Part shown: piece after piece, positions 15,157 through 39,246 of the stretch
Position numbering within the stretch: the stretch's first letter is position 1
How the letters are laid out: each line of letters starts with the position of its first letter
NCBI RefSeq assembly: GCF_030143245.1
Contig: NZ_JARJNS010000006.1
Coordinates: 186,001-250,000 of the forward strand
Source: Rhabdaerophilum sp. SD176
GTDB lineage: Bacteria > Pseudomonadota > Alphaproteobacteria > Rhizobiales > Beijerinckiaceae
Reading direction: 5' to 3'
DNA: 64,000 nt
The notes under the pieces: generated by a model
The model's database searches: none
Told to the model about the DNA's origin: nothing
Seen by the model: only the letters and a program-made list of their open reading frames with translations
Made by a program: the position numbers and the translations under genes

Positions 15157-15165
15157 GTTGGTTCC

Positions 15166-19976: not shown

Positions 19977-20885
19977 CTACCGCGTGCCTGGCTTCCCACG
20001 GTCGCTGCGGAACGCCCTGGTGATCCATTCGACGAAGGCCAATACGTCCGGATGACCGTCATCCTCCCGCCGGAAGATCAACCGATGCGCCACCACGGGA
20101 ATTCCGACCTCGCCGAACGGCAAAATGAGCCGGCGCTGATCGAGATAGCCCTTGGCCTGCAATGTCGATTCGAGCACGATCCCGAGGCCGTCAGCGGCGG
20201 AAGCAAGGGCAAGATGTGCCCGGTCGAACTGGAAGCCGCGCGGGTTGAGCGTCAGGCCCGGCGCGAAACGGGCTGACCATTGCGGCCATTGCACAACGCA
20301 GCGAAGGGAATGCAGCAGCGGCACGCGACCGATATCCGCGAAGGCACCGATATGGTGCTCGGCCACGAAGGCGGGGCTCGCCATGGGGACGATCGTCTCG
20401 TCCGCGAGGACGATCGCCTCGCAGGTTTCAGGCACCGGACGCGCATACTGAATGTCGATCAGGATCCCGTCCTGCCCGAGCCGGGCAGGCTCATGGCTGG
20501 CGAAGAGCGCTATATCGATGGCCGGGTGCTCGCGCATGAAATCCTTCAACCGCGGCACCAGCCAGAGAGTCGCAAAGCTCGGCGAACAATGGATCGGCAG
20601 GCGACGCGCGCCCGCCCCGGTCGCGAGCCGGTTGGTCGCCGCGATCAGGCGGGCGAAGCTTTCCGAGATCGTCGTGGCATAGGCCAGTGCCTCCTCGGTC
20701 GGTGTCACCTGCCGCTTGTCACGCAGGAAGAGGCGCTGGCCGAGCATGCCCTCCAGCGCCCGCATCTGGTGGCTGATGGCGGAGGGCGTCAGGCCCAGCG
20801 ACTTGGCGGCTCCGGCGAAACTGCCGGATTCGATGACAGCCTGAAAGGTCGCCAACCACTGAAGCGGAGGCATATTGCCCAGCAT
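19977..20885 (-). CDS. LysR-family transcriptional regulator (GcvA-like)
   Basis: 302-residue LysR regulator. The N-terminal winged HTH (residues 8-65) includes GSFAGAAKSLGLTPSAISHQMRALE, and the C-terminal half is a periplasmic-binding-like effector domain with the GcvA-type motif LALASAADGLGIVLES. It is divergent from the SAF-domain dehydrogenase/TRAP operon, whose start lies 243 bases away, so it most likely controls that operon in response to its substrate. A weak inverted repeat, GATGA-N7-TCATC, is at 20887-20903 next to the start codon. Confidence 0.9.
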   Translation of the reverse strand: MLGNMPPLQWLATFQAVIESGSFAGAAKSLGLTPSAISHQMRALEGMLGQRLFLRDKRQVTPTEEALAYATTISESFARLIAATNRLATGAGARRLPIHCSPSFATLWLVPRLKDFMREHPAIDIALFASHEPARLGQDGILIDIQYARPVPETCEAIVLADETIVPMASPAFVAEHHIGAFADIGRVPLLHSLRCVVQWPQWSARFAPGLTLNPRGFQFDRAHLALASAADGLGIVLESTLQAKGYLDQRRLILPFGEVGIPVVAHRLIFRREDDGHPDVLAFVEWITRAFRSDRGKPGTR

Positions 20886-21128
20886 TGATGAATACTCCTC
20901 ATCTTTTTCCGCATCCTAATTCGCTTTTCGCACGGGAGAAACATGTTAGCGTCTGCTTTGAGGAATGCTGCTCATGAGACACGAAGCAGCATCCGGCCGG
21001 GAAGAAACGATCGCCAGGACGCGGCATGACGGAACCACGGGATTCCGGCTGCCTTTCTGCGCGCTTCCTTCCGGCCATGATGTGGATCGGTTCGGCCACG
21101 CGCCGACAGGAAAGGAAGGCCAGGCCCC

Positions 21129-22469
21129 ATGAATCTTCACCGCATGCTGCTGGAACGCCAGTCTGCCGGAAAGCCGATCACCATCGGGATCATCGGCGCG
21201 GGGAAATTCGGAACGATGTTCCTGTCGCAGGCCCGCCAGACAGCCGGGATGCATGTCGTGGCGGTGGCCGATCTCAATACGACGCGGGCGCGCTCCCAGC
21301 TCAAGCTGGCCTGCTGGCCGGAAGAGCAATATGCCGCGACTTCGCTCGACGACGCGCTGATGAACGGCGCGACGCTGGTCACCGAGAATGGTGACAGCCT
21401 CGTCGCCCATCCCGGCATCGAGGTGATCATCGAGGCGACCGGCGATCCCGGCGCGGGCATCCGCTTCGCGCTGAAGGCGATCGAGAACGGCAAGCACATC
21501 ATCATGGTCAATGTCGAGGCCGATGCCGTGGCGGGCCCGTTGCTCGCCCGCAAGGCGAAGCAGGCCGGCGTGGTGTATTCGCTGGCCTGGGGCGATCAGC
21601 CGGCGCTGATCGCCGACCATGTCGACTGGGCGCGCGCAGCGGGATTCCGGGTGGTCGCTGCCGGCAAGGGCACGCGCTACCACCCGACCTATCACCAGTC
21701 GACGCCGGATACGGTGTGGGACATTCTCGACAAGTACATGAAGATCCGCGACCGGAATTCCATCAACCCGAAGATGTTCAATTCCTTTGTCGACGGCACC
21801 AAATCCGGCATCGAAATGACGGCGGTGTGCAACGCGACCGGGCTGGAAAGCCAGACCGAAGGGCTTTCCTTCCCGCCGGCGACCCGGTTCGAGCATGCCG
21901 AGATCTGCAAGCCGAAATCCGATGGCGGCGTGCTGGAACGCAAGGGCGTGACGGAGGTGACATCCTCGGTCTATCGCGACGGCAGCGATGTGCCGCATTC
22001 GCTGGTGATGGGCACCTATGTCGTCTTCGAGACGGACAGCGCCTATTCCGAGGAATGCTTCCGCGAATACTCGATGCTGCAAGACAGATCCGGCAAGTAT
22101 TCCTGCCTGTACCGGCCAACGCACATGATCGGCCTCGAACTGGGGATCTCGGTGGCCTCGGCGGCGCTCCGCAAGGAGCCAACAGGGGCGCCGGTCTGCT
22201 TCAATGCCGATGTCGTGGCCACAGCTAAGCGCGATCTCAAGGCCGGCGAGATGCTCGACGGCGAAGGCGGCTTCTGCGTCTGGGGCAAGCAGACCCCGGC
22301 CAAGGCCTCGCTGGCCGAAGGCTACCTGCCGCTCGGGCTCGCGCACAAGATCAAGCTCAAGCGCGACATTCCGCAGGGAGCCCGCCTGAAATGGTCGGAT
22401 GTCGAATTCGACCCCAACGATGCCGCCATCAAGGTTCGCCGCGAGATGGAAGCCCTGTTCTCGAGCTGA
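21129..22469 (+). CDS. NAD(P)-dependent oxidoreductase with SAF domain (homoserine-dehydrogenase-like)
   Basis: 446-residue predicted cytosolic dehydrogenase. A Rossmann fold opens with IGIIGAGKFGTMF at residues 19-31, and a catalytic domain like that of homoserine dehydrogenase follows with EATGDPGAG and GTRYHPTYHQSTP. A SAF (antifreeze/AFP-like) domain occupies about residues 355-440 (TAKRDLKAGEML). This architecture is known but mostly uncharacterised. The adjoining TRAP transporter and divergent LysR suggest it oxidises an imported hydroxy- or sugar-acid. The start at 21129 has GGAAAGGAAGGCC upstream. Confidence 0.8.
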   Translation: MNLHRMLLERQSAGKPITIGIIGAGKFGTMFLSQARQTAGMHVVAVADLNTTRARSQLKLACWPEEQYAATSLDDALMNGATLVTENGDSLVAHPGIEVIIEATGDPGAGIRFALKAIENGKHIIMVNVEADAVAGPLLARKAKQAGVVYSLAWGDQPALIADHVDWARAAGFRVVAAGKGTRYHPTYHQSTPDTVWDILDKYMKIRDRNSINPKMFNSFVDGTKSGIEMTAVCNATGLESQTEGLSFPPATRFEHAEICKPKSDGGVLERKGVTEVTSSVYRDGSDVPHSLVMGTYVVFETDSAYSEECFREYSMLQDRSGKYSCLYRPTHMIGLELGISVASAALRKEPTGAPVCFNADVVATAKRDLKAGEMLDGEGGFCVWGKQTPAKASLAEGYLPLGLAHKIKLKRDIPQGARLKWSDVEFDPNDAAIKVRREMEALFSS

Positions 22470-22484
22470 AAGTCCAACGACATG

Positions 22485-22506
22485 CCGGAGACAGAACCGT
22501 CTCCGG
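22485..22506 (+). other. Hairpin between dehydrogenase and TRAP genes
   Basis: CCGGAGAC and GTCTCCGG pair as perfect 8-bp arms around a 6-base loop, followed by TTTC. It is in the 88-base gap before the binding-protein gene and may act as a processing or partial termination site. Confidence 0.5.
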
Positions 22507-22557
22507 TTTCAACCGCCAGAGCCCGAAACGGGCCAGCATCTTTCCAGGGAGGAAAAC

Positions 22558-23553
22558 ATGACAAAGCCGTTCGAAATGTCAGCCAGCCGCCGCACCGTCC
22601 TGCTGGGCACGGCCGGTCTTGCCGGAATGGTGGCGATGCCCGCCATCCTTAGGGCCCAGACCGTGAAATGGATCGGGGCTTCCGCAACCCCGCCGACGGA
22701 TTTCATCGCACAGGGGCTCGATTTCTTTGCCGCCCGCGTCAAGGAGCTGACCAAGGGCCAGATCGAGATCGCCACGCACCATGCCGGATCGCTGGGCGGG
22801 GAGCGCGAGCATGTCGAAGGGCTGCTTCAGGGCTCGATCCATGTGGCCTCGCCAGGCGCGGCGATCCTCGGCGGCTGGTACAAGCCCGCAGAGGTCTGGA
22901 CCTACCCCTATCTGTTCAAGAACGTGGCCCACAAGGACAAGGTCATGACGAGCGTCATGACCGAGTATGGCGATGATGCCGGGGCGCAGGCCAAGCTCCG
23001 TCCGATGGCCTCGATCCCCCGCATGCCGCGCATGCTCTCCTCGAACCGCGTGGTCAAGAGCCCGGCCGATATGAAGGGCTTCAAGATCCGCGTGCCCGAA
23101 ACCACCATGTGGCGCCGGACCTTCGAGCGGTTCGGCGCCTCACCGACGCCGCTGCCCTGGCCGGAAGTGTTCCAGGCGTTGAAGTCGGGTATCATCGAGG
23201 GGCAGGAAAACCCGATGGCACTGACCTACAATGGTGGCATTTTCGACGTGAACAAGAACTTCGCGCTGACCGAGCACATGATGCAGGACAACATGATCGT
23301 CATCGCGGAAGCCACCTATCGCCGCGTCAACGAGGACCAGCGGAAGGCGCTCGTGCAGGCCTCCCGTGACATGGAGGATGCCCTGCGTCCGAAGGTCATC
23401 GCGGATGACAACCGGATCCTTGACCTGGTCAAGGCCAAGAACATCGCCATCAACGAGGTCGACAAGGACGCCTTCCGCAAGGCGATCGATGGCATGGAAG
23501 CCGAGTTCACCCATGTGAAGAAGTGGGTGGAGCGGATCAAGACCATCGCCTGA
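22558..23553 (+). CDS. TRAP transporter solute-binding protein (DctP family)
   Basis: 331-residue periplasmic receptor of a TRAP transporter. The leader has twin Arg in SASRRTVLLGTAGLAGM and a hydrophobic stretch, so export may be by Tat. The body has DctP-family features: GSLGGEREHVEGLLQGSIHVAS and MKGFKIRVPETTMWRRTFERFGA, where the Arg in IRVPE is the usual carboxylate clamp. The GGGAGGAAAAC site gives a strong start at 22558. It binds an organic acid and passes it to DctQM; identity is unknown. Confidence 0.9.
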   Translation: MTKPFEMSASRRTVLLGTAGLAGMVAMPAILRAQTVKWIGASATPPTDFIAQGLDFFAARVKELTKGQIEIATHHAGSLGGEREHVEGLLQGSIHVASPGAAILGGWYKPAEVWTYPYLFKNVAHKDKVMTSVMTEYGDDAGAQAKLRPMASIPRMPRMLSSNRVVKSPADMKGFKIRVPETTMWRRTFERFGASPTPLPWPEVFQALKSGIIEGQENPMALTYNGGIFDVNKNFALTEHMMQDNMIVIAEATYRRVNEDQRKALVQASRDMEDALRPKVIADDNRILDLVKAKNIAINEVDKDAFRKAIDGMEAEFTHVKKWVERIKTIA

Positions 23554-23569
23554 AACCGGCCTCTCCCTC

Positions 23570-23597
23570 GCCGGATCCCCGCGCCCGGGGATCCGGC
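23570..23597 (+). terminator. Terminator-like hairpin after the DctP gene
   Basis: GCCGGATCCCC and GGGGATCCGGC form perfect 11-bp arms around a 6-base loop, followed by ACTTTTCATTCTT. It lies between the binding-protein gene and the DctQ gene, so it is probably a leaky terminator that raises binding-protein mRNA relative to the permease genes. Confidence 0.75.
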
Positions 23598-23624
23598 ACT
23601 TTTCATTCTTGTCCCGGAGGCCCG

Positions 23625-24140
23625 ATGTCGGCATCCCCTGGAATCGTTCTCGGCTGGCGGCGGCTCTGCGATGCTGCCGAAACGCTGAGCCGCTTCATTG
23701 TCGGCGGCGCGATCCTCGCGATCGTCAGCATCACGATCCTCTCGGTCTGGTATCGTTACGCGCTCAACGCACCGCTTTCCTGGACAGAGCAGATGTGCCG
23801 GATCCTGTTCGTCTGGTCGGTCTTCGCCGGCGCGGCGATCCTATATCGCCAGATGCTGCATATCGCCATCGACATGATGGTCGTCATGCTGCCGCCCGGC
23901 CTTCAGAAGATCGTGGGCTGGATCAACCAAATCCTGATGCTGCTGACGGGCATCCTGATGCTCGTCTACGGGCTGCAGATCTCGATCGGAACGCTGGACC
24001 AGACGTTCGGCGCGCTGGAAATCTCGCCTGCCAGTTTCTACTTCGCCGCGCCCTATTGCGGATTGCTGATCGTGGTGTTCTGGGTCGAGAAGCTGTTCGA
24101 CCCCGCCCGGCGAGAGCCGCTCGGCGAAATCCATCTGTGA
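23625..24140 (+). CDS. TRAP transporter small permease (DctQ family)
   Basis: 171-residue membrane protein with four predicted helices. The GGAGG site seven bases upstream fixes the start at 23625. Typical DctQ blocks are SVWYRYALNAPLSWTEQMCRILFVW, where the Glu of the SWTEE/Q motif is conserved, and GAAILYRQMLHIAIDM. It forms the membrane unit with DctM and is encoded 72 bases after the receptor gene behind a terminator-like hairpin. Transport is driven by sodium or proton gradients in this family. Confidence 0.9.
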   Translation: MSASPGIVLGWRRLCDAAETLSRFIVGGAILAIVSITILSVWYRYALNAPLSWTEQMCRILFVWSVFAGAAILYRQMLHIAIDMMVVMLPPGLQKIVGWINQILMLLTGILMLVYGLQISIGTLDQTFGALEISPASFYFAAPYCGLLIVVFWVEKLFDPARREPLGEIHL

Positions 24141-24149
24141 GGATGCATC

Positions 24150-25430
24150 ATGGCCAGCATTCTCATATTCTCCTTCATCATGCTGATGGCGATTGGCCTG
24201 CCGATCGCCTTTGCGATGGCGCTGGCCTCGGTCGCCACGATCGCCAATCATCCTTCGCTGCCCTTTTCTGTCTTCATCCAGCGCGCCCTGATCGGCGCTG
24301 ACAGCTATTCGCTTCTTGCGATCCCGTTCTTCATCCTCGCCGGCAACATCATGAATGTCGGCGGAATCACTGCCCGGATCATCAACTTCGCGAATGCCTG
24401 CGTCGGTCGCTTTGCTGGCGGGCTGGGCCTGACAACCGTGATGAGCTGCATGGTCTTTTCCGGCGTGTCCGGTTCGGCGGTTGCGGATGCAACCGCTCTC
24501 GGCAAGGTCCTCATTCCCGGCATGAAGAAGGCCGGCTACGAGCCCGGCTTCGCGGCCTCGATCACCGCCTCGGCCTCGGTGATGGGGCCGATCATCCCGC
24601 CCTCCATCCCGTTGGTGATCTACGGGCTCTCCGTGGGCAAGGGGGTTTCGGTCGCAGCGCTGTTCCTCGGCGGCGTGATCCCCGGATTGCTGCTCGGCTT
24701 CGGACTCGCGGCCGTGACCTATCTGATCGCGCGGAAGCGCAACTACCCGGTGCATGAAGCCGTGCCGATGCGGCAGGTTCTCCAGTCCGGCTCGAAGGCG
24801 ATCTGGGCTCTGATGATGCCCTTCGTCATCCTGTTCGGCGTGACGGGCGGCGTGGTGACGGTAACGGAAAGCGCTGCATTCGCCGTGATGTATGCGCTTT
24901 TCGTGTCGATGGTGATCCACCGGGAACTCTCGGTCAGGCAGCTCTGGGCGATCTACGTGCAATCGGGCATCGATTCCGCCGTGGTGATGATCATCATTGC
25001 CTTTGCCGGCGCTTTTGGCTGGCTGATGGCGGTATCCGGCCTGCCACGGGAAATCGCGGCCTGGATCGGCAGCGTTTCGTCCAACCCGATCGTCATCCTC
25101 CTGCTGATCAATGGCCTGCTGCTGGTCGTGGGCTGCTTCATGGAAGCGATCGCGGCCATGATCATCCTGATCCCGGTGCTGATCCCGATCGTGGAGGCCG
25201 CCGGAATCGATCTCGTCCATTTCGGGCTGGTCATGGTGTTCAACCTGATGCTGGGCCTTCTGACGCCTCCGGTCGGGATCCTGCTTTACATCTGCGGCAA
25301 CTTTGCATCGGTGAAGATCGAACGCGTGGTCCGCGAGGTCATGCCATTCCTCGGCGTCGGCTTCCTCGTGCTGTTCGTGATCACGCTGTTCCCCGAGGTG
25401 GTGCTTTGGCTGCCAAGGGTCTTGCTCTGA
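24150..25430 (+). CDS. TRAP transporter large permease (DctM family)
   Basis: 426-residue integral membrane protein with about twelve helices, the transport subunit of the TRAP system. Hallmarks are LAIPFFILAGNIMNVGGIT, the GVSGSAVADATALGKVLIPGM loop and ASVMGPIIPPSIPLVIYG, which match the DctM ion- and substrate-binding repeats. It begins 9 bases after DctQ. The operon continues with a DUF2938 gene. Confidence 0.92.
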   Translation: MASILIFSFIMLMAIGLPIAFAMALASVATIANHPSLPFSVFIQRALIGADSYSLLAIPFFILAGNIMNVGGITARIINFANACVGRFAGGLGLTTVMSCMVFSGVSGSAVADATALGKVLIPGMKKAGYEPGFAASITASASVMGPIIPPSIPLVIYGLSVGKGVSVAALFLGGVIPGLLLGFGLAAVTYLIARKRNYPVHEAVPMRQVLQSGSKAIWALMMPFVILFGVTGGVVTVTESAAFAVMYALFVSMVIHRELSVRQLWAIYVQSGIDSAVVMIIIAFAGAFGWLMAVSGLPREIAAWIGSVSSNPIVILLLINGLLLVVGCFMEAIAAMIILIPVLIPIVEAAGIDLVHFGLVMVFNLMLGLLTPPVGILLYICGNFASVKIERVVREVMPFLGVGFLVLFVITLFPEVVLWLPRVLL

Positions 25431-25476
25431 CCGCTGCAACCGGGCAAGCCAGCCACAGGCAAATGGGAGGTTCACC

Positions 25477-25944
25477 ATGGTTCAGGGCCTGATCATCGGG
25501 ATCGGCGCCACGATCGTCTTCGATCTGTGGAACCTTCTCCTGAACCGGTTTTTCGGCATTCCGCTGCCGAACTGGGCGATGGTGGGCCGCTGGTTCCGCC
25601 ACATTTTCCGCGGGCAGTTCCTGCATGAGGATATTGCCCGCGCCGAACCTGTGGCGCACGAACGCGTCTGGGGCTGGGCCTTCCATTATGCGGTCGGCGC
25701 GAGTTTCGGCCTCGCAACCGTGGTTCTCGGCGGGCCGGGCTGGACATCCAGCCCGACACTTCTTCCCGCGATGGCGATCGGGCTCGGCACGGTCCTGCTC
25801 GGCTGGTTCGTCCTTGCCCCGGGCATGGGCGCGGGCATCGCCGCGCGCCTAAGGCCCAATGCAGTACATATCCGGGGGCTCAACCTGCTTGCCCATACCG
25901 TCTTCGGGTTGGCCATGTATGGGCTGGCCCGGCTGATCAGCTAG
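25477..25944 (+). CDS. DUF2938 membrane protein
   Basis: 155-residue integral membrane protein with about four helices. It opens MVQGLIIGIGATIVFDLWNLLLNRFFGIP and carries WAMVGRWFRHI, then HERVWGWAFHYAVGASFG, which are DUF2938 features. The start has AAATGGGAGG upstream and lies 46 bases after dctM, so it is likely part of the same transcript. The function is unknown; its place suggests a minor role connected with the imported substrate, or simple hitch-hiking. Confidence 0.82.
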   Translation: MVQGLIIGIGATIVFDLWNLLLNRFFGIPLPNWAMVGRWFRHIFRGQFLHEDIARAEPVAHERVWGWAFHYAVGASFGLATVVLGGPGWTSSPTLLPAMAIGLGTVLLGWFVLAPGMGAGIAARLRPNAVHIRGLNLLAHTVFGLAMYGLARLIS

Positions 25945-25959
25945 AACGATCCCCGCCCC

Positions 25960-26787
25960 TCAGCGCGCAAGGCCGAGGGCCACGAGATGGTCGACGCCCT
26001 TCATCAGGTTCGCCTGATCCTTGACCTCGAGGATCAGCCGCGCGGCCGGGCTGGCGACAGCAAGCGCCCGAAAGATGGCAGGCCAGTTCACGCTGCCCTC
26101 GCCCGGGTGCCAATGCCGGTCAGCATAGCCATCCATATCCTGAAGGTGGACATGCGCCAGCGCCGACCCTGCCTTGTGGACATAGACATCGACCGGCGGC
26201 GCGCCGGTCGAGACATGGGCATAATGGGCATGGCCCGTATCGATTGACACGCGGACAGGGTCCCCGAGGGCCTCCGCCAGCCGGACGCGTGCCGAGGGGT
26301 CCTTGTCCTCGATATTCTCGATGACAAGTTCGCAGCCGATATCCCGAGCACGGACAATCACCGGGGCAAGGCATTCCGCAACACGCCCGACCATCTTCTG
26401 CTCGGCACCCGGAAAAGCATCGAGATTGTTGTAATCCCAGGTCGTGAACGGGGAATGGATCACCATCTGCGTGGCACCGAGCCGTTCCGCGATCACCAGC
26501 GCCTGCAGGAAGCGCTTCTGGACCACCGCTCGAACCAGTGGATCCTCGGTGGAAATCCGGAAACCCCAGAACGGACCATGAAGCCCGAGGCGACCGTGAT
26601 ATCCGTCGAGCAGTCCGGCAATCTCATCCGCAACCGCCTCGGCATCGCCATCGAGCAAAGTGTGCTCAATGAAATCCTGGATCTCGAGATCGCGCTGATG
26701 GTCAAGGAGCCATTGCCGGTGGAGCGGCAACGTGCGCCGGCTAAGGGCCGCCCCGAGGAGCGGCAAGGATGGAACAGGAACAGTCAT
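25960..26787 (-). CDS. Sugar phosphate isomerase/epimerase-like TIM-barrel protein
   Basis: 275-residue xylose-isomerase-like TIM barrel (AP endonuclease family 2 fold). Metal-site residues are visible as Glu in VIENIEDKDPSAR, Asp-His in SIDTGHAHY, His in HVHLQDMDG and Glu near the end in LILEVKD. The gene is divergent from phnDCE, and a good Pho-box match in its own orientation lies 46 bases upstream of the ATG. This suggests that the enzyme is induced by phosphate starvation and handles a phosphorus-linked sugar or product. The true substrate is unknown, and it could equally be a glyoxylate or myo-inositol pathway enzyme. Confidence 0.8.
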   Translation of the reverse strand: MTVPVPSLPLLGAALSRRTLPLHRQWLLDHQRDLEIQDFIEHTLLDGDAEAVADEIAGLLDGYHGRLGLHGPFWGFRISTEDPLVRAVVQKRFLQALVIAERLGATQMVIHSPFTTWDYNNLDAFPGAEQKMVGRVAECLAPVIVRARDIGCELVIENIEDKDPSARVRLAEALGDPVRVSIDTGHAHYAHVSTGAPPVDVYVHKAGSALAHVHLQDMDGYADRHWHPGEGSVNWPAIFRALAVASPAARLILEVKDQANLMKGVDHLVALGLAR

Positions 26788-26832
26788 CGTGGTTCTCCGG
26801 TCAAGCTTCGGCTGTTTCCGTGGCGCCTCTCC

Positions 26833-26850
26833 ATGACAGGCTGATGATGG
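26833..26850 (-). promoter_or_regulatory. Pho box, minus orientation
   Basis: Read on the minus strand, CCATCAT-cagc-CTGTCAT matches the PhoB consensus CTGTCAT-N4-CTGTCAT at 12 of 14 positions, with exact 11-bp spacing. It ends 46 bases before the ATG of the TIM-barrel gene. Confidence 0.6.
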
Positions 26851-26905
26851 CCGGCTTCATCGTGCCGGAGACGGGGCCGTGCCGCTCCTGCCGGCCTGCG
26901 CCCCC

Positions 26906-26923
26906 GTGTCATCAGACTGTCGT
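26906..26923 (+). promoter_or_regulatory. Pho box, plus orientation, upstream of phnD
   Basis: GTGTCAT-caga-CTGTCGT matches the PhoB consensus at 12 of 14 positions with the correct 4-base spacer. A third, weaker unit, CTGCGCT, continues the 11-bp period. It lies 55 bases upstream of the phnD start codon. Confidence 0.7.
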
Positions 26924-26978
26924 GACGCTGCGCTAGCGCTCGCGAAAGTGAACCCCAAACCCGCCAAGAGGGCCCCTA

Positions 26979-27845
26979 ATGATCCTGCGCCGTCTGTTCC
27001 TTGCCGCCGCCATCGCCATGACTGCCGGCCTTCCGGCCATCGCCCAGGAAAAGATCCGCTTCGCGGTGACCGATGTCGACGGTCTCGAGAGCCTGCAGCG
27101 CGAATTCGGGCCGTTCAAGGACGCATTCGAGAAGGTTTCGGGCCTGAAGGTCGATTTCTTCGCCGTATCGGGCCGCACCGCCGCTGTTGAAGCCATGGCG
27201 GCGGATCAGGTTGATTTCGTCCTGACCGGTCCGGCCGAATATGTCGTGTTCAACGCCCGCATGAAGGCGCAGCCGGTCGTTGTGTGGGAGCGGCCGAACT
27301 ATCGCTCGTCGATCGTGGTTCCCGACAACAGCCCGATCAAGACGCTCGCGGACCTGAAGGGCAAGAAGGTCTCGTTCGGCGAGATCGGCTCGACCTCCCA
27401 GCATCTCGCGCCGGCGACCATTCTTGCCGATGGCGGCCTCGCCTATGGCAAGGATTACGAGCCGGTTTTCCTGAAGCTCAACGTGGCGGCCGAGGCGTTG
27501 CTGCGGAATGATATCGCGGCGATCGGGATGAACCAGACGCATCTCGAGCGCATCACCAAGGCCTTCCCGAACCAGAAGTTCCGCACCCTCGGCGATGGCG
27601 CGAACCTGCCGAACGACCTGATTGTCGTCTCGTCGAAGGTGAAGCCGGAAACCGTTGCGAAGTTCCGCGCTGCCTTCCGTGATCATGGCCCGATGCTGCT
27701 CGGCGCAATCACGACAACCAAGGAGAACGCCAAATTCGTCGGCGGAAAGTTCCTCTGGGATGTGCAGGACAAGGATTATGACCTCGTCCGCAAGATGTTT
27801 GTGAATGTCGGCGTGCGCGAATTCACGAAGTTCATCGGCGGCTGA
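26979..27845 (+). CDS. phnD: Phosphonate ABC transporter substrate-binding protein PhnD
   Basis: 288-residue periplasmic receptor of the PhnD/SsuA/transferrin class. The signal peptide is MILRRLFLAAAIAMTAGLPAIAQ. The body begins KIRFAVTDVDGLESL, carries DFVLTGPAEYVVF, the family ligand site, and VSFGEIGSTSQHLAP, the Ser/Thr-rich loop that holds the phosphonate group. It is the first gene of phnDCE and is preceded by a Pho box at 26906-26923. It probably binds a phosphonate, phosphite or phosphate-like anion. Confidence 0.88.
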   Translation: MILRRLFLAAAIAMTAGLPAIAQEKIRFAVTDVDGLESLQREFGPFKDAFEKVSGLKVDFFAVSGRTAAVEAMAADQVDFVLTGPAEYVVFNARMKAQPVVVWERPNYRSSIVVPDNSPIKTLADLKGKKVSFGEIGSTSQHLAPATILADGGLAYGKDYEPVFLKLNVAAEALLRNDIAAIGMNQTHLERITKAFPNQKFRTLGDGANLPNDLIVVSSKVKPETVAKFRAAFRDHGPMLLGAITTTKENAKFVGGKFLWDVQDKDYDLVRKMFVNVGVREFTKFIGG

Positions 27846-27848
27846 ACC

Positions 27849-28652
27849 ATGGCGCTAGCCCTTGCCTTGCCGGACGAGTCCCTGATCGAAGCGCTCACTC
27901 CAGCGCTCCGGATCCAGGGGCTCCGCAAGGCATTCGGCGCCCGGACAATTCTTGACGGCCTGGATCTCGAGGTCGAGCCGGGCACCGCAGTCGCCCTGAT
28001 CGGGGCCAACGGCGCGGGTAAATCGACCTTGCTGCGCATGCTGGTGCGGTTGATCGAACCGGATGCCGGCCAGATGACGTTGCTCGGAGAAGCTGTGACG
28101 GAGCTGGCTCCCGGTCCCCTCCGCACGTTCCGGCGCCGGGTCGGCATCGTCTTCCAGCGGCATAACCTTGTCGGGCGGTTATCCGCTCTGAGCAATGTCC
28201 TTCATGGCGTGCAGGCGCGGAAAAGCGGCCCACGGACATGGCTTCAGGCGCTTGCACCGGCTGCGGACCGGGCCGAGGCTCTCGCCTGCCTCGCCGAGGT
28301 CGGCCTCGCCGATCGCGCGCTCCAGCGCGCGGATTCCCTGTCCGGTGGTCAATCCCAGCGTGTGGCAATCGCCCGCATGCTGATGCAGCGACCGGAATTC
28401 ATCCTTGCCGATGAACCGGATGCCAGCCTCGATCCGCGTTCGGGCGAGGAGATCATGGACCTGCTCTACCGGCTTGCCAAGGACAAGGGCCTGACATTGA
28501 TCGTGATTTCGCATCGGCTCGAACATACCATTCGTTATTCGGACCGGATCGTCGGCCTCGCGGACGGGCGCATCACGCTGGACAGGCCCTCGCGCCAAGC
28601 CGATCCGCGCCATCTCCGGCAATTCTTCACCGGACGGGACCACGAGGAATGA
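27849..28652 (+). CDS. phnC: Phosphonate ABC transporter ATP-binding protein PhnC
   Basis: 267-residue ATPase of the phosphonate importer. Walker A GANGAGKST is at about residue 53, the signature LSGGQSQRVAIARML at about 162 and Walker B FILADEPDASLDPR follows. PhnC-specific blocks are RRVGIVFQRHNLVGRLSALSNVLHG and the 'VISHRLEHTIRYSDRIVGL' strand. It begins 3 bases after phnD ends and overlaps phnE by 4 bases (ATGA). Confidence 0.9.
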   Translation: MALALALPDESLIEALTPALRIQGLRKAFGARTILDGLDLEVEPGTAVALIGANGAGKSTLLRMLVRLIEPDAGQMTLLGEAVTELAPGPLRTFRRRVGIVFQRHNLVGRLSALSNVLHGVQARKSGPRTWLQALAPAADRAEALACLAEVGLADRALQRADSLSGGQSQRVAIARMLMQRPEFILADEPDASLDPRSGEEIMDLLYRLAKDKGLTLIVISHRLEHTIRYSDRIVGLADGRITLDRPSRQADPRHLRQFFTGRDHEE

Positions 28653-29446
28653 GCCTGCCTTCGCCGGCTGTCGCCGTGCCCCGCTGGGACCGGCCAAATG
28701 CCCTCACTTTCATTCTCACCGTCCTCGCCCTGGCCTTCCTTGTCTGGTCATTCTCGAATGTCGGGCTTTCATGGGAGCGGATGCAGCGTGGATTTCCGGC
28801 GCTGGGTTCTATCCTCGACCGGATGTTTCCGCCGGACCTCGAACGGCTGCCACAGATCCTGCGTTCCTTGCTCATCACATTCCAGATGGCGCTTGTCGGT
28901 TGTGTGCTCGGGCTGATCCTCGCATTCCCGCTGGCCATCCTTGCAGCCGACGGTCTCTCGCCCCATCCCGTCATCAAGCAATTGGCACGCGGGCTGATTG
29001 CCTTCTTCCGAACCGTGCCGGACCTCGTCTGGGCGCTGCTCTTCGTGATCGCGGTCGGGCTCGGGCCGGCAGCCGGTGTCATGGCAATCATGGTCGACAA
29101 GATCGGCTTTGCGGGGCGCTTCTTCGCGGAAGCGATGGAAGAAGTCGACAAGGGTCCGCAGGAAGCGCTGGCAGCAATCGGCGCGACGCGTTCCGGGCTG
29201 ATCTTCTCCGCCGTCGTGCCGCAGGCCCTGCCCTCTTTCATCGCCACGTCACTGTTCAGCCTCGAAAAGGCGGTGCGCGGCTCTGTGATCCTCGGGCTTG
29301 TCGGGGCCGGCGGCATCGGCGTCGAGCTCAAGGTGGCCTTCGACCTGTTTGACTACGACACGGCGGCGACAATCATCATCGCAGTGTTCCTGCTGGTCGT
29401 TCTGGTCGAGCAGGTCTCGAACCGCGTCCGCAAGCGGCTGCTCTGA
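28649..29446 (+). CDS. phnE: Phosphonate ABC transporter permease PhnE
   Basis: 265-residue inner-membrane permease of the PhnE family, with about six helices. The EAA-type loop, FFAEAMEEVDKGPQEALAAIGA (about residues 153-174), and the C-terminal GLVGAGGIGVELK are typical. The gene overlaps phnC by ATGA, which indicates translational coupling. No C-P lyase genes follow, so any further breakdown must be encoded elsewhere. Confidence 0.9.
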   Translation: MSLPSPAVAVPRWDRPNALTFILTVLALAFLVWSFSNVGLSWERMQRGFPALGSILDRMFPPDLERLPQILRSLLITFQMALVGCVLGLILAFPLAILAADGLSPHPVIKQLARGLIAFFRTVPDLVWALLFVIAVGLGPAAGVMAIMVDKIGFAGRFFAEAMEEVDKGPQEALAAIGATRSGLIFSAVVPQALPSFIATSLFSLEKAVRGSVILGLVGAGGIGVELKVAFDLFDYDTAATIIIAVFLLVVLVEQVSNRVRKRLL

Positions 29447-29595
29447 CAGCGCAGGATGCGTTAGCCGGCGCGACGCCAAAGTGACATCAGGCCATCACCG
29501 GCATGTCATCGCCGGTCGCTAGCGGAACGACAGATCGGCAATCAACGGTTGCCGACAGCACCCGCCCTTGGGGCGATCTCATCACGGGGAAGCCG

Positions 29596-30936
29596 ATGTC
29601 CAGACGCATTCTTGCCGCCGCAGCGCTTGCGGCCACTACCCTTGGGCTTGCCGGTCCGGCCCAGGCCCAGCAGCGCATCCAGTTCGAGTTCTGGTATGGC
29701 CTGACCGGCCGTCTCGGCGAGATCATGGAAGAGCATTGCAAGCGCTTCAATGACAGCCAGACCAAGTACGAGGCCAAGTGTGTCGGCCAGGGTGGCTACG
29801 ACAAGGCCGAGCAGAACACGATTGCCGCCTTCCGCTCGAAGCAGCACCCGACGCTCGTCCAGATCTATGATGCCGGCACCGTCAATTTCATGCTCTCCGG
29901 CGCGACCTATAATGCGCCGGATCTCGCGCGCGACTTCAACATGAAGATCGACTGGTCGGGCTATTTCCCCGGCATCGCGAACTATTACGCCACGTCGAAG
30001 GGCCAGATGTGGTCGTTCCCCTACAATTCCTCGACCGCCCTGCTCTACTGGAACAAGGATGCGTGGGCGAAGATTGGCAAGACCAAGGCGCCGGAGACGA
30101 TCGAGGAATGGTGGGACGATGTCCGCGCCATGAAAAAGGCGGGTGTCGAGTGCGGCTTTGCCTTCGATTACGATACCTGGATGCCGCTGGAACAGTTCTC
30201 GGCGATCCACAACCTGCCGATCGCGACCAAGAACAACGGCTATGACGGCCTCGATGCCGAAGTCATGTTCAACAAGACCAAGTTCGCCGATTACATGAAG
30301 GACTGGAAGAAGCTGCTCGACGAGGGCGTTGCCCGGATCCAGACCGCCCAGACCGGCAAGACCATCCTGCAGGCCTTCACCGACGGCTCCTGCGCCTCGA
30401 TGCTGAGCTCGGTCGCCAACCATGGTGTCGTGGGTTCGACCGCCAAGCCGGGCCTGAACTGGGGTGTCGCCAAGCTGCCGGTCTACAAGGACTTCAAGCG
30501 TCATAACAGCCTCGTCGGCGGCGCCTCGCTCTGGATCCTCCAGGGCAAGTCCAAGCCGCAATACGAAGCGGCTGCTGCCTATATCCAGTTCCTCCTCCAG
30601 CCGAAGGAAGAGCAGTGGTTTGCCGATGTGACCGGCTACATCCCGGTCACCCAGGCGGGCTACAAGGCGATGGTGGATGCCGGGTTCTATGCCGATCCCA
30701 AGCGCCAGGGCCGCGAAATCGCCATCGAGTCGCTGACCTTCACGCCCCCGACCGCCGTGTCGCGCGGAATCCGCCTCGGCAACTTCACGCAGATCCGCGC
30801 CGAGATCCGCTCGGAGCTCGAAGCCGCGTTCACCGGCAAGAAGGACGTCCAGACCGCGCTGGATGATGCCGCCCAGCGTTCGAACCAGATCCTCCGTCGG
30901 TTCGAGCAGACCTTCAAGGGCAAGCAGCTGCCCTGA
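29596..30936 (+). CDS. ugpB: Glycerol-3-phosphate ABC transporter substrate-binding protein UgpB
   Basis: 446-residue periplasmic receptor for sn-glycerol-3-phosphate or glycerophosphodiesters. A signal peptide ending PAQAQ is followed by EFWYGLTGRLGEIMEEHCKRFN, the UgpB opening; downstream are LVGGASLWILQGKSK, TGYIPVTQAGYKA and RLGNFTQIRAEI, all UgpB hallmarks. The length is near the family norm. GGGGAAG upstream supports ATG 29596. It leads ugpBAEC and is followed by a strong hairpin. No convincing Pho box was found in front of it. Confidence 0.92.
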   Translation: MSRRILAAAALAATTLGLAGPAQAQQRIQFEFWYGLTGRLGEIMEEHCKRFNDSQTKYEAKCVGQGGYDKAEQNTIAAFRSKQHPTLVQIYDAGTVNFMLSGATYNAPDLARDFNMKIDWSGYFPGIANYYATSKGQMWSFPYNSSTALLYWNKDAWAKIGKTKAPETIEEWWDDVRAMKKAGVECGFAFDYDTWMPLEQFSAIHNLPIATKNNGYDGLDAEVMFNKTKFADYMKDWKKLLDEGVARIQTAQTGKTILQAFTDGSCASMLSSVANHGVVGSTAKPGLNWGVAKLPVYKDFKRHNSLVGGASLWILQGKSKPQYEAAAAYIQFLLQPKEEQWFADVTGYIPVTQAGYKAMVDAGFYADPKRQGREIAIESLTFTPPTAVSRGIRLGNFTQIRAEIRSELEAAFTGKKDVQTALDDAAQRSNQILRRFEQTFKGKQLP

Positions 30937-30956
30937 TCGCCGCCCTCTGAACCCTT

Positions 30957-30980
30957 GTCCCGGGCCATACGGCCCGGGAC
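30957..30980 (+). terminator. Terminator-like hairpin after ugpB
   Basis: GTCCCGGGCC and GGCCCGGGAC form perfect 10-bp arms around ATAC, followed by CTCTCTTTT. It sits between ugpB and ugpA, so it probably gives partial termination and protects the ugpB transcript. Confidence 0.78.
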
Positions 30981-31001
30981 CTCTCTTTTCGGGGAAGCGG
31001 C

Positions 31002-31886
31002 ATGGACAGGCGCGCCACCTTTGACAATCTCTGGCTCGCCGGCGCCCTCGTGGCTCCGCAGATCCTGCTGGTTGTCGTGTTCTTCTACTGGCCGACGATG
31101 CAGGCGCTCTATTGGGCCTTCTCGACCCAGCCGCCATTTGGCGGAACCAACCAATGGGTAGGCTGGCAGAATTTCGAGCAGATCTTTTCGGATGCCGTGT
31201 ATTGGAACTCGGTCCGCGTCTCTATCGTCTTCGCGATCCTCTCGACGGCCCTGTCGATCGGCATGGCCCTGCTCCTCGCGCTGATGATCGACAGGCAACT
31301 TGCGGGGCACAAGGCCTATCGCTTTGTCTATTTCTGGCCCTATGCCATCGCCGCGCCTGCGGTCGGGCTCGCCTTTCGCTTCATCTTTGCGCCGGATGCC
31401 GGGTTCGTTTCAGCCATCAACCAGCTTGCTCCCAATCTCTGGAACCCCGCTCTCAAGGGCTGGGATGCGATGCTCCTCATCGTGATCGCCAATTCCTGGA
31501 AGATGATGGCCTATAATTTCATCTTCTTCCTCGCCGCGCTCCAGAGCATTCCGCGCAGCCTCGTCGAGGCGGCGGCGATGGATGGCTCTGGCGTCCTCCG
31601 CCGCGCGCGCGACATCCAGATCCCGCTGCTTGCGCCAACCCTGTTCTTCCTGCTGGTCATCAACATCACCGAAAGCTTCGTCGACAGCTTCGGCATTGTT
31701 GACATCACCACCGGCGGCGGGCCGGCCCGCGCCACGGATCTGATGGTCTTCAAGATCTATTCCGACGGGTTCAAGGGCCTCGACTACTCGATGGCAGCAG
31801 CGCAATCGATCGTGCTGATGCTGCTCGTGATCGGCCTGACCTTCGTCCAGTTCCGCTATGTCGAGAAACGGGTGCATTATGCGTGA
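31002..31886 (+). CDS. ugpA: Glycerol-3-phosphate ABC transporter permease UgpA
   Basis: 294-residue permease of the MalF/UgpA type with about six helices. It opens with a cytosolic segment, then LVAPQILLVVVFFYWPTMQALYWAF, the UgpA first helix. The EAA loop is SLVEAAAMDGSGVLRRARDIQIPLL (about residue 184-208). The gene overlaps ugpE by 8 bases and is separated from ugpB by a hairpin. It pairs with UgpE to form the channel. Confidence 0.92.
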   Translation: MDRRATFDNLWLAGALVAPQILLVVVFFYWPTMQALYWAFSTQPPFGGTNQWVGWQNFEQIFSDAVYWNSVRVSIVFAILSTALSIGMALLLALMIDRQLAGHKAYRFVYFWPYAIAAPAVGLAFRFIFAPDAGFVSAINQLAPNLWNPALKGWDAMLLIVIANSWKMMAYNFIFFLAALQSIPRSLVEAAAMDGSGVLRRARDIQIPLLAPTLFFLLVINITESFVDSFGIVDITTGGGPARATDLMVFKIYSDGFKGLDYSMAAAQSIVLMLLVIGLTFVQFRYVEKRVHYA

Positions 31887-32787
31887 TGCCGGCATGATCG
31901 AACGCGCCCCTCTGCTGAACGCGGTGACGCATGTCCTCATGATCGCAGGGCTGCTGATCGCGGCCTTCCCGATCTACGTGGTCTTCATCGCCTCGACGCA
32001 TGACCTGCCGACGGTGAACCGGGTGCCCATGCCGCTCTGGCCGGGCGAACATCTCGTCCAGAACTACACGACGGTGTGGAACAAGTCTGATTTCGGCGCA
32101 AAGATGATCAACTCGCTGATCGTCGCTACCGGTGTCACGATCGGGAAGATCACCCTTGCTGCCCTGACCGCCTTCTCCATCGTCTTCTTCCGCTATCGGG
32201 CGCGAATGCTGATCTTCTGGGCGATCTTCATCACGCTCATGCTGCCGCTTGAAGTGCGCATCGTCCCGACCTATGCCGTTGCTGCCGATGTGGCCGAGCC
32301 GCTGCGCTGGCTGGTCTGGCTGTTCGGGTTCGAACTTGGCATCGCTCCGATCAACCTGCTGAACACCTATACCGGCCTGATCCTGCCGCTGGTCGCCACG
32401 GCAACGGGCACCTTCCTCTACCGCCAGTTCTTTCTGACGATCCCGGATACGCTGGTGGAGGCCGCCCGCATGGATGGCGCCGGACCGCTGCGATTCTTCC
32501 GCGAGCATCTTCTCCCGCTCTCCCGCAACAACATGGCGGCGCTGGCAACCATCATGTTCGTCTATGCCTGGAACCAGTATCTCTGGCCCTTGCTGATCAC
32601 CACCGATGCCCGGATGGCCACCGCGACCATGCAATTGCAGAAGATCGTGCCCGGCCCACTTTTCGGGCAGCCGCCGGTCTGGAACGAGGCCATGGCCGCC
32701 ACGCTTCTCGTGATGGTGCCCCCGCTTCTCGTTGTCATTTTCATGCAGGGCGCCTTCGTGCGCGGCCTCGTCGCCACTGACAAGTAA
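31879..32787 (+). CDS. ugpE: Glycerol-3-phosphate ABC transporter permease UgpE
   Basis: 302-residue permease of the MalG/UgpE type. The start at 31879 (ATGCGTGATG) overlaps the ugpA stop, suggesting coupled translation. Features are [31 protein letters not shown]-like helices and the EAA loop [28 protein letters not shown], the UgpE/MalG signature, is near residue 232. It works with UgpA, UgpC and UgpB. Confidence 0.92.
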
Positions 32788-32807
32788 ACCCGAACTGGAG
32801 GCTCTCC

Positions 32808-33920
32808 ATGGCCGATATCGCGATCCGGAATGTCGAGAAATCCTACGGCAAGACCGCCGTCCTGCATGGCATCGACCTGCAGATCGCGGACGGTGAATTC
32901 CTGGTCATCCTCGGGCCTTCTGGGTGCGGAAAATCTACCTTGCTGCGGATGATCGCAGGGCTGGAAGGCATCAGCCGGGGCGAGATCGCCATTGCCGGCC
33001 GCGTCGTCAACGCCCTGGAACCCCGTGAGCGCGGCTGCGCCATGGTGTTCCAGAACTATGCGCTCTATCCGCACATGACGGTTGGGGAAAACATTGGCTA
33101 TGCGCTCAAGGTCGCGGGCCTGCCGAAGCCGGAGCGGGAGCGCCGCGTCGCGGAGATCGCGCGGATTGTCGGGCTGGAGGCGTTTCTGGCCCGCCGGCCC
33201 AGCGAATTGTCTGGCGGGCAGCGTCAGCGCGTGGCCATGGGGCGAGCGATGATCCGCGAGCCGAAAGTCTTCCTGTTCGACGAGCCGCTGTCGAACCTCG
33301 ATGCCAAGCTCCGCGTGCAGATGCGGCTCGAAATCCGGCGCCTCCATCAGCGACTGCAGGCGACTTCGGTCTTTGTCACCCATGACCAGATCGAAGCCAT
33401 GTCTCTGGCCGACAGGATCGTCGTGATGAACCAGGGGCGGATCGAGCAGGCTGGGCCGCCCCGCCTGCTCTATGCCGAGCCCGCCACACGATTCGTGGCT
33501 TCCTTCCTCGGAGCGCCGGCGATGAACCTTTTGCCCGCGACCATCATTGCGAAGGATCGCGCACGCATGGCCGACGGGACGGAGATCGCCCTTGATCCGG
33601 CCCGCTTCATCGTCGAGATCGGGCAGGCTGTGGAGATCGGCATCCGGCCCGAGGATGTCATGATCGTCTGGCCGGGAAGCGAGGGCGCCCATGCACTCGA
33701 AGTCGAGTTCACGGAGGATATGGGGTCAAGCCGTCTCCTCCATACCCGGCTGGGCGGCATGGAATTCACAGTCCTGCAGCCTGCCGCGCAGATCGAGGCG
33801 GAAGGCCAACTCCCGATCACGATTCCCGAAAACGCCATCCATCTGTTCGACCTGAACACCGGCAAGCGGCTTAATCGGCAGATTCCGGTGATCGGGACGG
33901 CTGCATCGGCCGCCGCCTGA
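32808..33920 (+). CDS. ugpC: Glycerol-3-phosphate ABC transporter ATP-binding protein UgpC
   Basis: 370-residue ATPase of the MalK/UgpC group. Walker [10 protein letters not shown] is at about residue 37, the signature [15 protein letters not shown] at about 135 and Walker [15 protein letters not shown] follows. The regulatory TOBE domain occupies about residues 240-370, as in MalK. GGAGG precedes the ATG. It closes the ugpBAEC operon and is 82 bases from the next ABC unit on the same strand. Confidence 0.92.
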
Positions 33921-33948
33921 TAGTCCGAAGCCTGATGATGAGCCGGCT

Positions 33949-33966
33949 GCGTCACACAAGCGTCAA
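33949..33966 (+). promoter_or_regulatory. GCGTCA direct repeat, weak Pho-box-like
   Basis: GCGTCAC-acaa-GCGTCAA repeats GCGTCA at an 11-bp interval. Each half matches only the GTCA core (4 of 7) of CTGTCAT. It lies 36 bases before the GTG start of the second ABC unit. Confidence 0.3.
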
Positions 33967-34002
33967 GTCCAAGCCCTAAGCCGCCGGAGCGGAGGGCCGA
34001 GC

Positions 34003-35169
34003 GTGGAACACAGCCTGGAACTGGCACAAATTTCGAAAGCATTCGGGAAAACCGGCGTGCTTTCCGAAATCGATCTTGCGGTCCAGCCGGGTGAATTCCT
34101 TTCGCTTGTCGGCCCGTCAGGTTGCGGAAAATCGACCCTGCTGCGCATCATTTCCGGGCTCGAACGACAGGATGCCGGGCAGGTCCGCATCGCTGGCCGC
34201 ACCGTGGACGCGCTGTCGCCGCGGGCGCGCAACATCGCCATGGTCTTTCAGAACTACGCGCTCTATCCCCACATGAGCGCGGCAGAAAATATCGCGCTTC
34301 CGCTCATGGTGGATCGGCTTTCGCTGTTCGAAAGGCTGCCGCTCATCCGGCATCTCTCACCAAGGCGGAAGCGGATCGAGGCCGCAATTTCCGGCGAAAT
34401 CGGCAAGGTGGCCGAAGCCCTGCAGATCGAACCGTTGCTGGCCCGCAAGCCCGGCCAGCTTTCCGGCGGCCAGCGCCAGCGCGTGGCCCTGGCGCGCGCC
34501 ATGGTCCGCCAGCCGAGCCTGTTCCTGATGGACGAGCCACTTTCCAATCTTGATGCGCAGTTGCGCGTCCACATGCGCGACGAGCTGACCGACCTGCATC
34601 GACGCCTGGGCGCCACCTTCATCTACGTGACCCATGACCAGATCGAAGCGATGACGATGTCTACCCGCATCGCCATGCTCGATGGCGGCCGGCTGGCTCA
34701 AATCGGCAGCCCGGCTGATCTCTATGAGCGCCCGGCCTCATTGACGGTGGCCCGGTTCATCGGTTCGCCGGCCATCAACGTCCTGCCTGCCCGCCTCGAT
34801 CCGCAGGGCCATGTCATTCTCGGAACCCTGCCGACCGGGCTCGTCGTGCCTGACGGCATGGCAGGCCCCGTCTCGCTCGGCCTGCGCCCGGAGCACATCC
34901 GGCTTCATGCAGCCTGTGACCGCGCCATGCCCATGGCCACGCTTCGCCGCAGCGAGCATCACGGTGCAGACCGCCTCCTGCATCTCGACCTTGCCGAAGA
35001 CCGGCAGACCGGACTGATCGTACGGATCCCGCAGGATGAGACAGGCCAGTTTCAGCCTGGCGAGACGTATGGCATTGGGTTTGCACCGGAAAAGGCGCAT
35101 CTTTTCGACGCGTCCGGCCTGCGGATGGCCACCCGCACCGTTCCGGCCCGGATCGGGGCAGCGGCATGA
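34003..35169 (+). CDS. ABC sugar/polyol-type ATP-binding protein (second Ugp-like system)
   Basis: 388-residue ATPase of the MalK/UgpC group. The GTG start at 34003 is set by GGAGGG upstream. Walker [10 protein letters not shown] is near residue 41, the signature [15 protein letters not shown] near 157 and Walker [15 protein letters not shown] follows. Compared with the neighbouring UgpC it carries an extra segment of about 25 residues (SLFERLPLIRHLSPRRKRIE) just before the signature helix region. It leads a four-gene unit and overlaps the next permease by ATGA. Substrate is not evident, but the context suggests a glycerophosphodiester or related compound. Confidence 0.88.
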   Translation: MEHSLELAQISKAFGKTGVLSEIDLAVQPGEFLSLVGPSGCGKSTLLRIISGLERQDAGQVRIAGRTVDALSPRARNIAMVFQNYALYPHMSAAENIALPLMVDRLSLFERLPLIRHLSPRRKRIEAAISGEIGKVAEALQIEPLLARKPGQLSGGQRQRVALARAMVRQPSLFLMDEPLSNLDAQLRVHMRDELTDLHRRLGATFIYVTHDQIEAMTMSTRIAMLDGGRLAQIGSPADLYERPASLTVARFIGSPAINVLPARLDPQGHVILGTLPTGLVVPDGMAGPVSLGLRPEHIRLHAACDRAMPMATLRRSEHHGADRLLHLDLAEDRQTGLIVRIPQDETGQFQPGETYGIGFAPEKAHLFDASGLRMATRTVPARIGAAA

Positions 35170-36083
35170 CGACCCTCGCCCTTGCGCCGGCTGTCGGCCG
35201 GGTGCCACGGCGTTCCCGACCGGTCCGGGAATGGCTGGCCGGAACGCTCTTCGTTGTGCCGGCGACAATGCTGTTGCTGGCGATCATTCTCGCGCCGCTG
35301 TTGTGCCTCCTCATCCTCAGCCTGACCGACTACGAAATCGGCGCCATGCAGATCCGGTGGCTCGGGCTGGGTAATTTCGAAAAAGCGCTGTCCGACCCGG
35401 TTTTCCGGCGGGCCATGGGCAATACCCTCCTTTATGTGGCGCTCGTCCTTCCCGGCGGGGTCATCCTCGGCCTGCTCGTGGCCCTGCTGGTTCACGGACG
35501 GACGCGTTCGCGGGCTTTCTACGAAGTCGCCTACTTCCTGCCCGTCACGGCCACGTTGATCGCCATGGCGGCCGTATGGCAGTTCCTGCTCCATCCGAAG
35601 CTGGGGCCGGTCAATGGGCTGCTGAAAGCGGCAGGTTTTCCCGAAATGGCCTTCATTTCTGAGCCGTCGCTGCTGATTCCGACACTCGCGGTGATCGGGC
35701 TCTGGAACCTGATCGGCTTCAACATGATCCTGTTTCTGGCCGGTCTGACAGCGATCCCGCGTGATCTCTACGACGCCGCCGAGATCGACGGCGCCGGCGG
35801 GCCGATCGACCGCTTCCTGACCGTCACATGGCCCCAGCTCGCGCCCACGACGATGTTCGTTGCGGTAACCACCTCGATCACCGCATTCAAGGTGTTCGAC
35901 ACCGTCGCCGTGCTGACGCGCGGCCGCGACGGCTCGGAGGTGCTGCTCTACGCGATCTATCTGGAAGGGTTCCAGTATTTCAAGATCGGCTATTCCGCCG
36001 CCCTCACGGTCATCTTCCTCGCCTTCATGCTGGCCTTCTCGGTCTTCCAGGCCTTCCAGCTCGACCGCCGGGTGCATTACTGA
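35166..36083 (+). CDS. ABC sugar-type permease (UgpA/MalF-like)
   Basis: 305-residue membrane permease with about six helices. The first helix reads LAGTLFVVPATMLLLAIILAP and the EAA loop is LYDAAEIDGAGGPIDRFLTVTWPQL (about residues 200-224). The gene starts inside the ATPase stop codon (ATGA) and overlaps the next gene by one base, so translation is coupled. It forms the pore with the next gene's product. Confidence 0.9.
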   Translation: MTTLALAPAVGRVPRRSRPVREWLAGTLFVVPATMLLLAIILAPLLCLLILSLTDYEIGAMQIRWLGLGNFEKALSDPVFRRAMGNTLLYVALVLPGGVILGLLVALLVHGRTRSRAFYEVAYFLPVTATLIAMAAVWQFLLHPKLGPVNGLLKAAGFPEMAFISEPSLLIPTLAVIGLWNLIGFNMILFLAGLTAIPRDLYDAAEIDGAGGPIDRFLTVTWPQLAPTTMFVAVTTSITAFKVFDTVAVLTRGRDGSEVLLYAIYLEGFQYFKIGYSAALTVIFLAFMLAFSVFQAFQLDRRVHY

Positions 36084-36934: not shown

Positions 36935-37020
36935 CCCTTCCGGCGCCGGCCGGCAGGGTGCGCCGGACGGAGCCGTCTCCCCGAATGCACCCGAAGCCGA
37001 CACCAACAGGAGGCGTCTCC

Positions 37021-38304: not shown

Positions 38305-38313
38305 GCCCTTCCC

Positions 38314-38344: not shown

Positions 38345-38370
38345 CCTTTCGTTTTCCAAGGACCGAGCCG

Positions 38371-39180: not shown

Positions 39181-39246
39181 TCAGGGGCGGCCTGCCCTTG
39201 CCGCCTGCCCAACGGCTCTGCCAAGACGGGGCGTGCGGCAGCAAGC

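Follow-up and report, generated by a model that had tools for sequence, protein, structure and literature searches.

Does phosphate starvation switch on both a phosphonate-type transporter and the isomerase-like gene that stands back to back with it, and what would such an enzyme then do? The question is raised by a stretch of 64,000 nucleotides from Rhabdaerophilum sp. SD176 (contig NZ_JARJNS010000006.1, positions 186,001 to 250,000), referred to below as the window, in which a TIM-barrel gene and phnDCE diverge from an intergenic region of 191 bases that carries two opposed Pho boxes. The genome (3.96 Mb, 99% complete) has Beijerinckiaceae/Hyphomicrobiales metagenome-assembled genomes as its closest named relatives. 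The best overall explanation, to which we give an even chance, is a divergent pair of PhoB promoters that would serve, on the TIM-barrel side, a hydrolase of imported phosphodiesters. The features of the divergent region are as follows.

25960–26787, minus strand: TIM-barrel gene, 275 aa, PF01261 (Pfam score 85 bits against a cut-off of 31), candidate metallo-hydrolase.
26833–26850, minus strand: Pho box facing the TIM-barrel gene, CCATCATCAGCCTGTCAT, 12/14 consensus matches.
26906–26923, plus strand: Pho box facing phnD, GTGTCATCAGACTGTCGT, 12/14 consensus matches.
26979–27845, plus strand: phnD-like binding protein of the phosphate/phosphite/phosphonate subfamily (TIGR01098 above cut-off).

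The initial annotation had described two opposed boxes, each agreeing with CTGTCAT-N4-CTGTCAT in 12 of 14 positions, and both were found at the positions and on the strands that it gave. Its distance of 55 bases between the plus box and phnD was correct, whereas the minus box lies 45 bases, not 46, from the TIM-barrel start codon (26787). When up to two mismatches were allowed, the two boxes were the only sites in the window; simulated 64-kb sequences held 0.18 such sites on average, and a pair within 100 bp occurred in none of 60 simulations. Across the whole genome, 28 sites were detected at this threshold, compared with 5 for the reversed pattern. The consensus scan at three mismatches is uninformative for the window because 5 matches were found against 3.17 expected. 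A scan with a PhoB matrix, also suggested in the initial annotation, was run with pstS boxes of the window's family (17 distinct boxes from 17 of 18 pstS loci; the remaining locus was dropped, having no site within four mismatches). The plus box ranked first (20.0 bits) and the minus box second (16.3 bits), followed by the next-best window position at 14.2 bits. This matrix is not wholly independent because its boxes were chosen by likeness to the same consensus.

The minus box has a poor first half-site (CCATCAT), and by 10 simulations a stretch of 64 kb should contain 0.8 sites with its score, so that the case for it rests on pairing, position and conservation. If it were weak or fortuitous, only the phnD-facing box would work and the TIM-barrel gene would be free of PhoB control here. 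We consider this quite improbable, as the minus box is retained with its spacing in four relatives (L009–L012) and its position agrees with that of the boxes at TIM homologues of other genera. Both boxes form conserved islands amid divergent intergenic sequence in L009–L012, with 2, 2, 2 and 3 mismatches in the minus box and 2, 2, 1 and 3 in the plus box, in that order.

PhoB control may extend further along the plus strand, where phnD-C-E is followed by ugpBAEC-like genes.

27849–28652, plus strand: phnC-like ATPase (best model TIGR02315, 245 bits, just below the cut-off of 266).
28649–29446, plus strand: phnE permease (TIGR01097 above cut-off).
29481–29509, plus strand: third, degenerate Pho-box-like element before ugpB, three half-sites with an 11-base period.
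29596–30936, plus strand: ugpB-like binding protein (NF008211, 325 bits, below the cut-off of 411).
31002–33920, plus strand: ugpA-, ugpE- and ugpC-like genes (ugpE model above cut-off, ugpA below).

By consensus, the third element is weak (4 mismatches, 12.4 bits), and it is nearly unchanged in L009–L012; to judge from this conserved triple half-site, it is probably the third Pho box of the cluster. The start of the ugpB-like gene at 29596 was chosen from its signal peptide, the open reading frame (ORF) itself opening at 29503. The third gene of the ugpA/E/C-like group encodes an ABC ATPase with a MalK OB domain. A GDPD gene (ugpQ) was not among the genes examined by the ugp cluster of the window; the genome contains two GDPD genes, both on other contigs. 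Farther out, a second ABC transporter follows the ugp genes (34003–38304: ATPase, two permeases and an SBP_bac_1 binding protein), and a DUF2938 membrane-type protein (25477–25944) is encoded convergently with the TIM-barrel gene. An Rfam search of window positions 20000–40000 gave no match, and a tRNA scan found none.

Elsewhere in the genome, contig C18 carries a box between a PhoR-like and a PstS-like gene, with the PhoB gene 6 kb further. The PhoB match was above its family cut-off, and the PhoR and PstS model matches were below theirs. Of the sites with up to two mismatches, one falls where the ppk frame begins and another where a GDPD frame begins; a third lies at the 3' end of phnK, upstream of phnM, and a fourth precedes a PhnM-like gene by 39 bases. 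No NCBIfam model matched the PhnJ-like frame next to phnK, and identification was kept to PhnK and PhnM. Not all 28 genome sites need be functional because further ones fall inside called frames or by unnamed genes. Motif, conservation and regulon context, each supported computationally, thus favor the expectation that phosphate starvation would induce both transcripts together through PhoB. We infer PhoB binding and induction at this locus, and PhoB control of both the TIM-barrel and phnDCE promoters appears highly probable from the sequence. Two other sites were recorded. One lies 23 bases before a calcineurin-like metallophosphoesterase gene, which is followed by a frame with weak matches to glycosyltransferase models (L243, 676–1570); this pair could possibly serve lipid remodelling at low phosphate. 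The other (L234, 1489–1506) has two mismatches and is separated by 26 bases from the point where a 487-codon frame begins on the opposite strand.

At E ≤ 1e-40, a TIM homologue was present in 18 of the 199 family genomes searched; at E ≤ 1e-50, the count was 75 among 397 genomes drawn at order level and 6 among 385 at class level, in sets that overlap and include the window genome. From part of the listed matches, 77 TIM loci of 33 genera, the window's own among them, were examined. Neighbouring genes were named by tblastn with marker proteins and GC-frame filters, which left many neighbours without a name; naive longest-ORF calling gave false genes in these GC-rich loci and was not used for the neighbours. 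A box with up to three mismatches preceded the TIM gene (TIM strand, –130 to –20) in 21 of the 77 loci (8 genera); of the 879 remaining genes called in these loci, 13 had one (Fisher 3e-16, the related loci being non-independent). With up to two mismatches, the counts were 9 of 77 loci (2 genera) and 8 of 879 neighbouring genes. When 370 bases were scanned in 81 loci (one present twice, as L021 and L172), a box on one or the other strand was seen in 26; shuffled sequences predicted 1.8, and the reversed pattern gave 1. Most of the examined Bradyrhizobium TIM-acc operons carry three half-sites, for example ATTTCAC-N4-CTGTCAT-N4-CTGGTCT. Boxes with up to two mismatches were present within 8 kb in 6 of 30 chosen loci (L123, L124, L217, L096, L132, L218).

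The neighbours of the TIM gene point to phosphorus in a recurrent, computationally supported manner. Within 7.5 kb, at least one of phnD/phnE, ugpB, an AccA-like protein or GDPD was found in 35 of the 77 loci and 14 of the 33 genera. The AccA-like (agrocinopine-type) binding protein was the neighbour in 20 loci (8 genera), ugpB in 11 (4 genera), phnD/phnE in 10 (6 genera) and GDPD in one. A larger share of these phosphorus-linked loci had a box (17 of 35) than of the remaining loci (4 of 42). A wider tally of "phn" neighbours, amounting to 20 loci, was rejected, as it was swollen by unrelated ABC ATPases. Model matches identify the marker protein labelled ptxD as a 2-hydroxyacid dehydrogenase and no more, and phosphite dehydrogenase identity is not claimed. 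The sole Dpp-type binding protein compared, that of L089, was AccA-like (4ra1, E = 3.5e-79; next 5u4o, 2e-31, and DppA, 6e-27) and reached no NCBIfam cut-off. In L165, a PF01663 type I phosphodiesterase gene (14385–15653) closes the operon of the TIM gene and the AccA-like ABC transporter, and similar sequences occur in L120, L168, L196, L015 and L122.

Plasmids were sampled as well: 10 of 56 matching records were opened, 9 of them annotated. A Dpp-type ABC transporter together with GDPD and HAD accompanied the TIM gene in one Paracoccus and in Pseudosulfitobacter, and in another Paracoccus a HAD phosphatase alone did so. One Sulfitobacter locus carried a phosphodiesterase and a Dpp-type ABC transporter and another phnCDE; phnCDE also stood beside the TIM homologue of Salipiger. 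On a Rhizobium rhizogenes plasmid (L095, 554–6819), the TIM gene comes after aepX, aepY, the 2-aminoethylphosphonate (AEP) transaminase gene (C-P bond-forming) and an amidohydrolase gene, with phnDE present too. Marinibacterium had a Dpp-type ABC transporter only, Deinococcus a sugar-type ABC transporter, and the unannotated Rhizobium SSA_523 a Dpp-type ABC transporter by tblastn.

Several observations weigh against a PhoB-controlled phosphorus role for the family. None of the phosphorus neighbours listed above lay within 7.5 kb in 42 of the 77 loci, and 56 loci, including the sugar-ABC lineage, had no box. Between –130 and –20, no box was found at the phn-linked loci L123, L172, L208, L217 and L223, nor at four of the five loci from genus g29, which is ugp-linked. 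The Rhodobacterales loci hardly support PhoB control because, of six scanned at up to two mismatches over 8 kb, only L096 had a box, 4.5 kb from the TIM gene. Even so, the boxes and neighbours make a phosphorus-scavenging role of the TIM-barrel enzyme likely.

Is this role bound to phosphonate or phosphite, as the initial annotation had proposed? The phn neighbours do recur, but AccA-like neighbours are more frequent and ugpB neighbours about equally so, which turns the proposed tie into one with phosphorus scavenging generally. A specific role in phosphonate or phosphite use would fit the divergence of phnDCE from the TIM-barrel gene in the window and a binding protein for which PtxB is the closest among solved proteins (the PhnD equivalog TIGR03431 was not reached, with 91 of the 261 bits needed), as well as three plasmid TIM loci, two of them with phnCDE and one with both aepX/aepY and phnDE. 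We nonetheless judge such specificity unlikely. Besides the AccA-like and ugpB neighbours, the kin of the window enzyme stands against it: on a TIM tree of 90 rows (built by a quick method that left 31 of 87 inner branches open), the rows nearest by path to the window's four-row clade, outside its own arrangement, were the acc-type rows L120 and L165. Moreover, among the marker matches, a TIM homologue appeared in none of the 18 fetched loci with window-type phnD (26 matching genomes of 397); 6 of these 18 had a plus-strand box with up to three mismatches before phnD. Labels on the TIM tree need 6 changes for phn (at least 5 by starred branches), 12 for acc (at least 6) and 2 for ugp. It thus appears from the tree that the partner transporter changes and the phosphorus link persists, which disfavors a role confined to a single substrate, for example phosphonate. 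In L223, the TIM homologue lies between two differing phn transporters, one of window type and one of Salipiger type.

The label "isomerase-like" is doubtful, as the metal-ligand set of endonuclease IV is kept. Nine His/Asp/Glu residues were invariant in 92 of 92 homologue rows, and eight of them align on the zinc ligands of Escherichia coli endonuclease IV (Nfo). The ninth, H70, matches Nfo H69 by motif only, since the global alignment paired H70 with I66. E. coli nfo was used for comparison because endonuclease IV was absent from the 21 relatives' genomes searched (no match to TIGR00587 at E 0.001, the window genome included). The DxH..PGEG loop was dropped as a hydrolase mark, being present in FrlC too. 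With this computationally supported ligand set, the TIM-barrel protein is predicted to be a phosphodiesterase, a prediction that we hold at roughly even odds; its zinc content, hydrolase activity and substrate belong to the same prediction.

It is also conceivable, albeit with clearly lower probability, that the protein does epimerise or isomerise a sugar or sugar phosphate and would act on the sugar after another enzyme has cut the imported diester. Ketose 3-epimerases are among the nearest characterised folds, the four epimerase-type ligands E157, D183, H214 and E254 are present, and the fructoselysine 3-epimerase model gave a weak match (34 bits, cut-off 305). A separate diester-cutting enzyme is at hand in some loci, with GDPD and a HAD phosphatase adjoining the TIM gene in L091 and L092 and the PF01663 phosphodiesterase in L165. 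However, the equally invariant H70, H111, D223 and H225 are not needed by a one-metal epimerase, the full nine-residue set was missing from four E. coli epimerases/isomerases, and GDPD was not found with two queries in 19 of the 20 AccA-linked loci.

For the phosphodiesterase, the following course of events is proposed. Upon phosphate starvation, PhoR would phosphorylate PhoB, which on the two Pho boxes would recruit RNA polymerase outwards both ways, to phnDCE and to the TIM-barrel gene, and the third, weaker box would extend this control to ugpBAEC. PhnDCE would import phosphite- or phosphonate-type anions, and Ugp glycerol-3-phosphate and glycerophosphodiesters. In the cytoplasm, the TIM protein would act as a metallo-hydrolase, its trinuclear zinc centre resembling that of endonuclease IV, and convert a small imported phosphodiester into a phosphomonoester and an alcohol. 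It would thereby take the place held by AccF, the agrocinopine phosphodiesterase, in acc systems and by UgpQ in ugp systems.

More tentatively, a large alphaproteobacterial family named "sugar phosphate isomerase/epimerase" may consist of PhoB-controlled, endonuclease IV-like three-metal phosphodiesterases that replace AccF/UgpQ and serve interchangeable importers (AccA-like, Ugp, PhnDCE). If true, this would be an unrecognised route for phosphorus scavenging from small phosphodiesters in these bacteria. Pho boxes are ordinary in themselves; together with their conservation and the neighbours, they give an unassigned and probably misnamed enzyme family a concrete proposed role: the scavenging of phosphorus by way of a hydrolase site likely to bind three metals. 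No description of this TIM family in a Pho regulon was found in titles and abstract openings of the open-access literature, subscription papers lying outside the search. AccA-type import is best known from crown-gall plasmids; the present loci suggest that it is widespread among bacteria of soil and water, with Bradyrhizobium and Rhodobacterales as examples, and partly under phosphate control.

Among known systems, the acc operon of Agrobacterium (AccA-AccF-AccG, agrocinopine use) resembles the related loci in which an AccA-like protein stands beside the TIM gene. AccF is presumably a GDPD-kind enzyme, whereas the window enzyme is a PF01261 TIM barrel; its partners are phnDCE and ugp, with no AccA-type protein or Dpp-type ABC transporter beside the TIM gene of the window. 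According to excerpts of the respective papers, the acc operon responds to phosphate limitation (PMC4086400), and AccF cuts the imported sugar phosphodiester inside the cell (PMC4526662). D-tagatose 3-epimerase and other sugar epimerases share the fold and four metal ligands, but those compared do not have the full nine-residue set. CbiR of Akkermansia is, in an excerpt of its description, a PF01261 protein with a likely metal site that converts cobamide to cobinamide phosphate (PMC7733943); the likeness is one of family and description, and CbiR differs in its cobamide context. Endonuclease IV has the same fold and eight aligned metal-ligand positions, whereas the window genome has no TIGR00587 match and the TIM locus no DNA-repair context. 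Nearest to the TIM protein in both sequence and fold are TTHB071 (3ayt, 3ayv) and MJ1311 (3wqo). The structure paper on MJ1311 reportedly notes nine endonuclease IV residues. Judged by eye in alignments, TTHB071 and MJ1311 have the same ligands as the TIM protein, and 3ayv is, by its title, a zinc-soaked structure.
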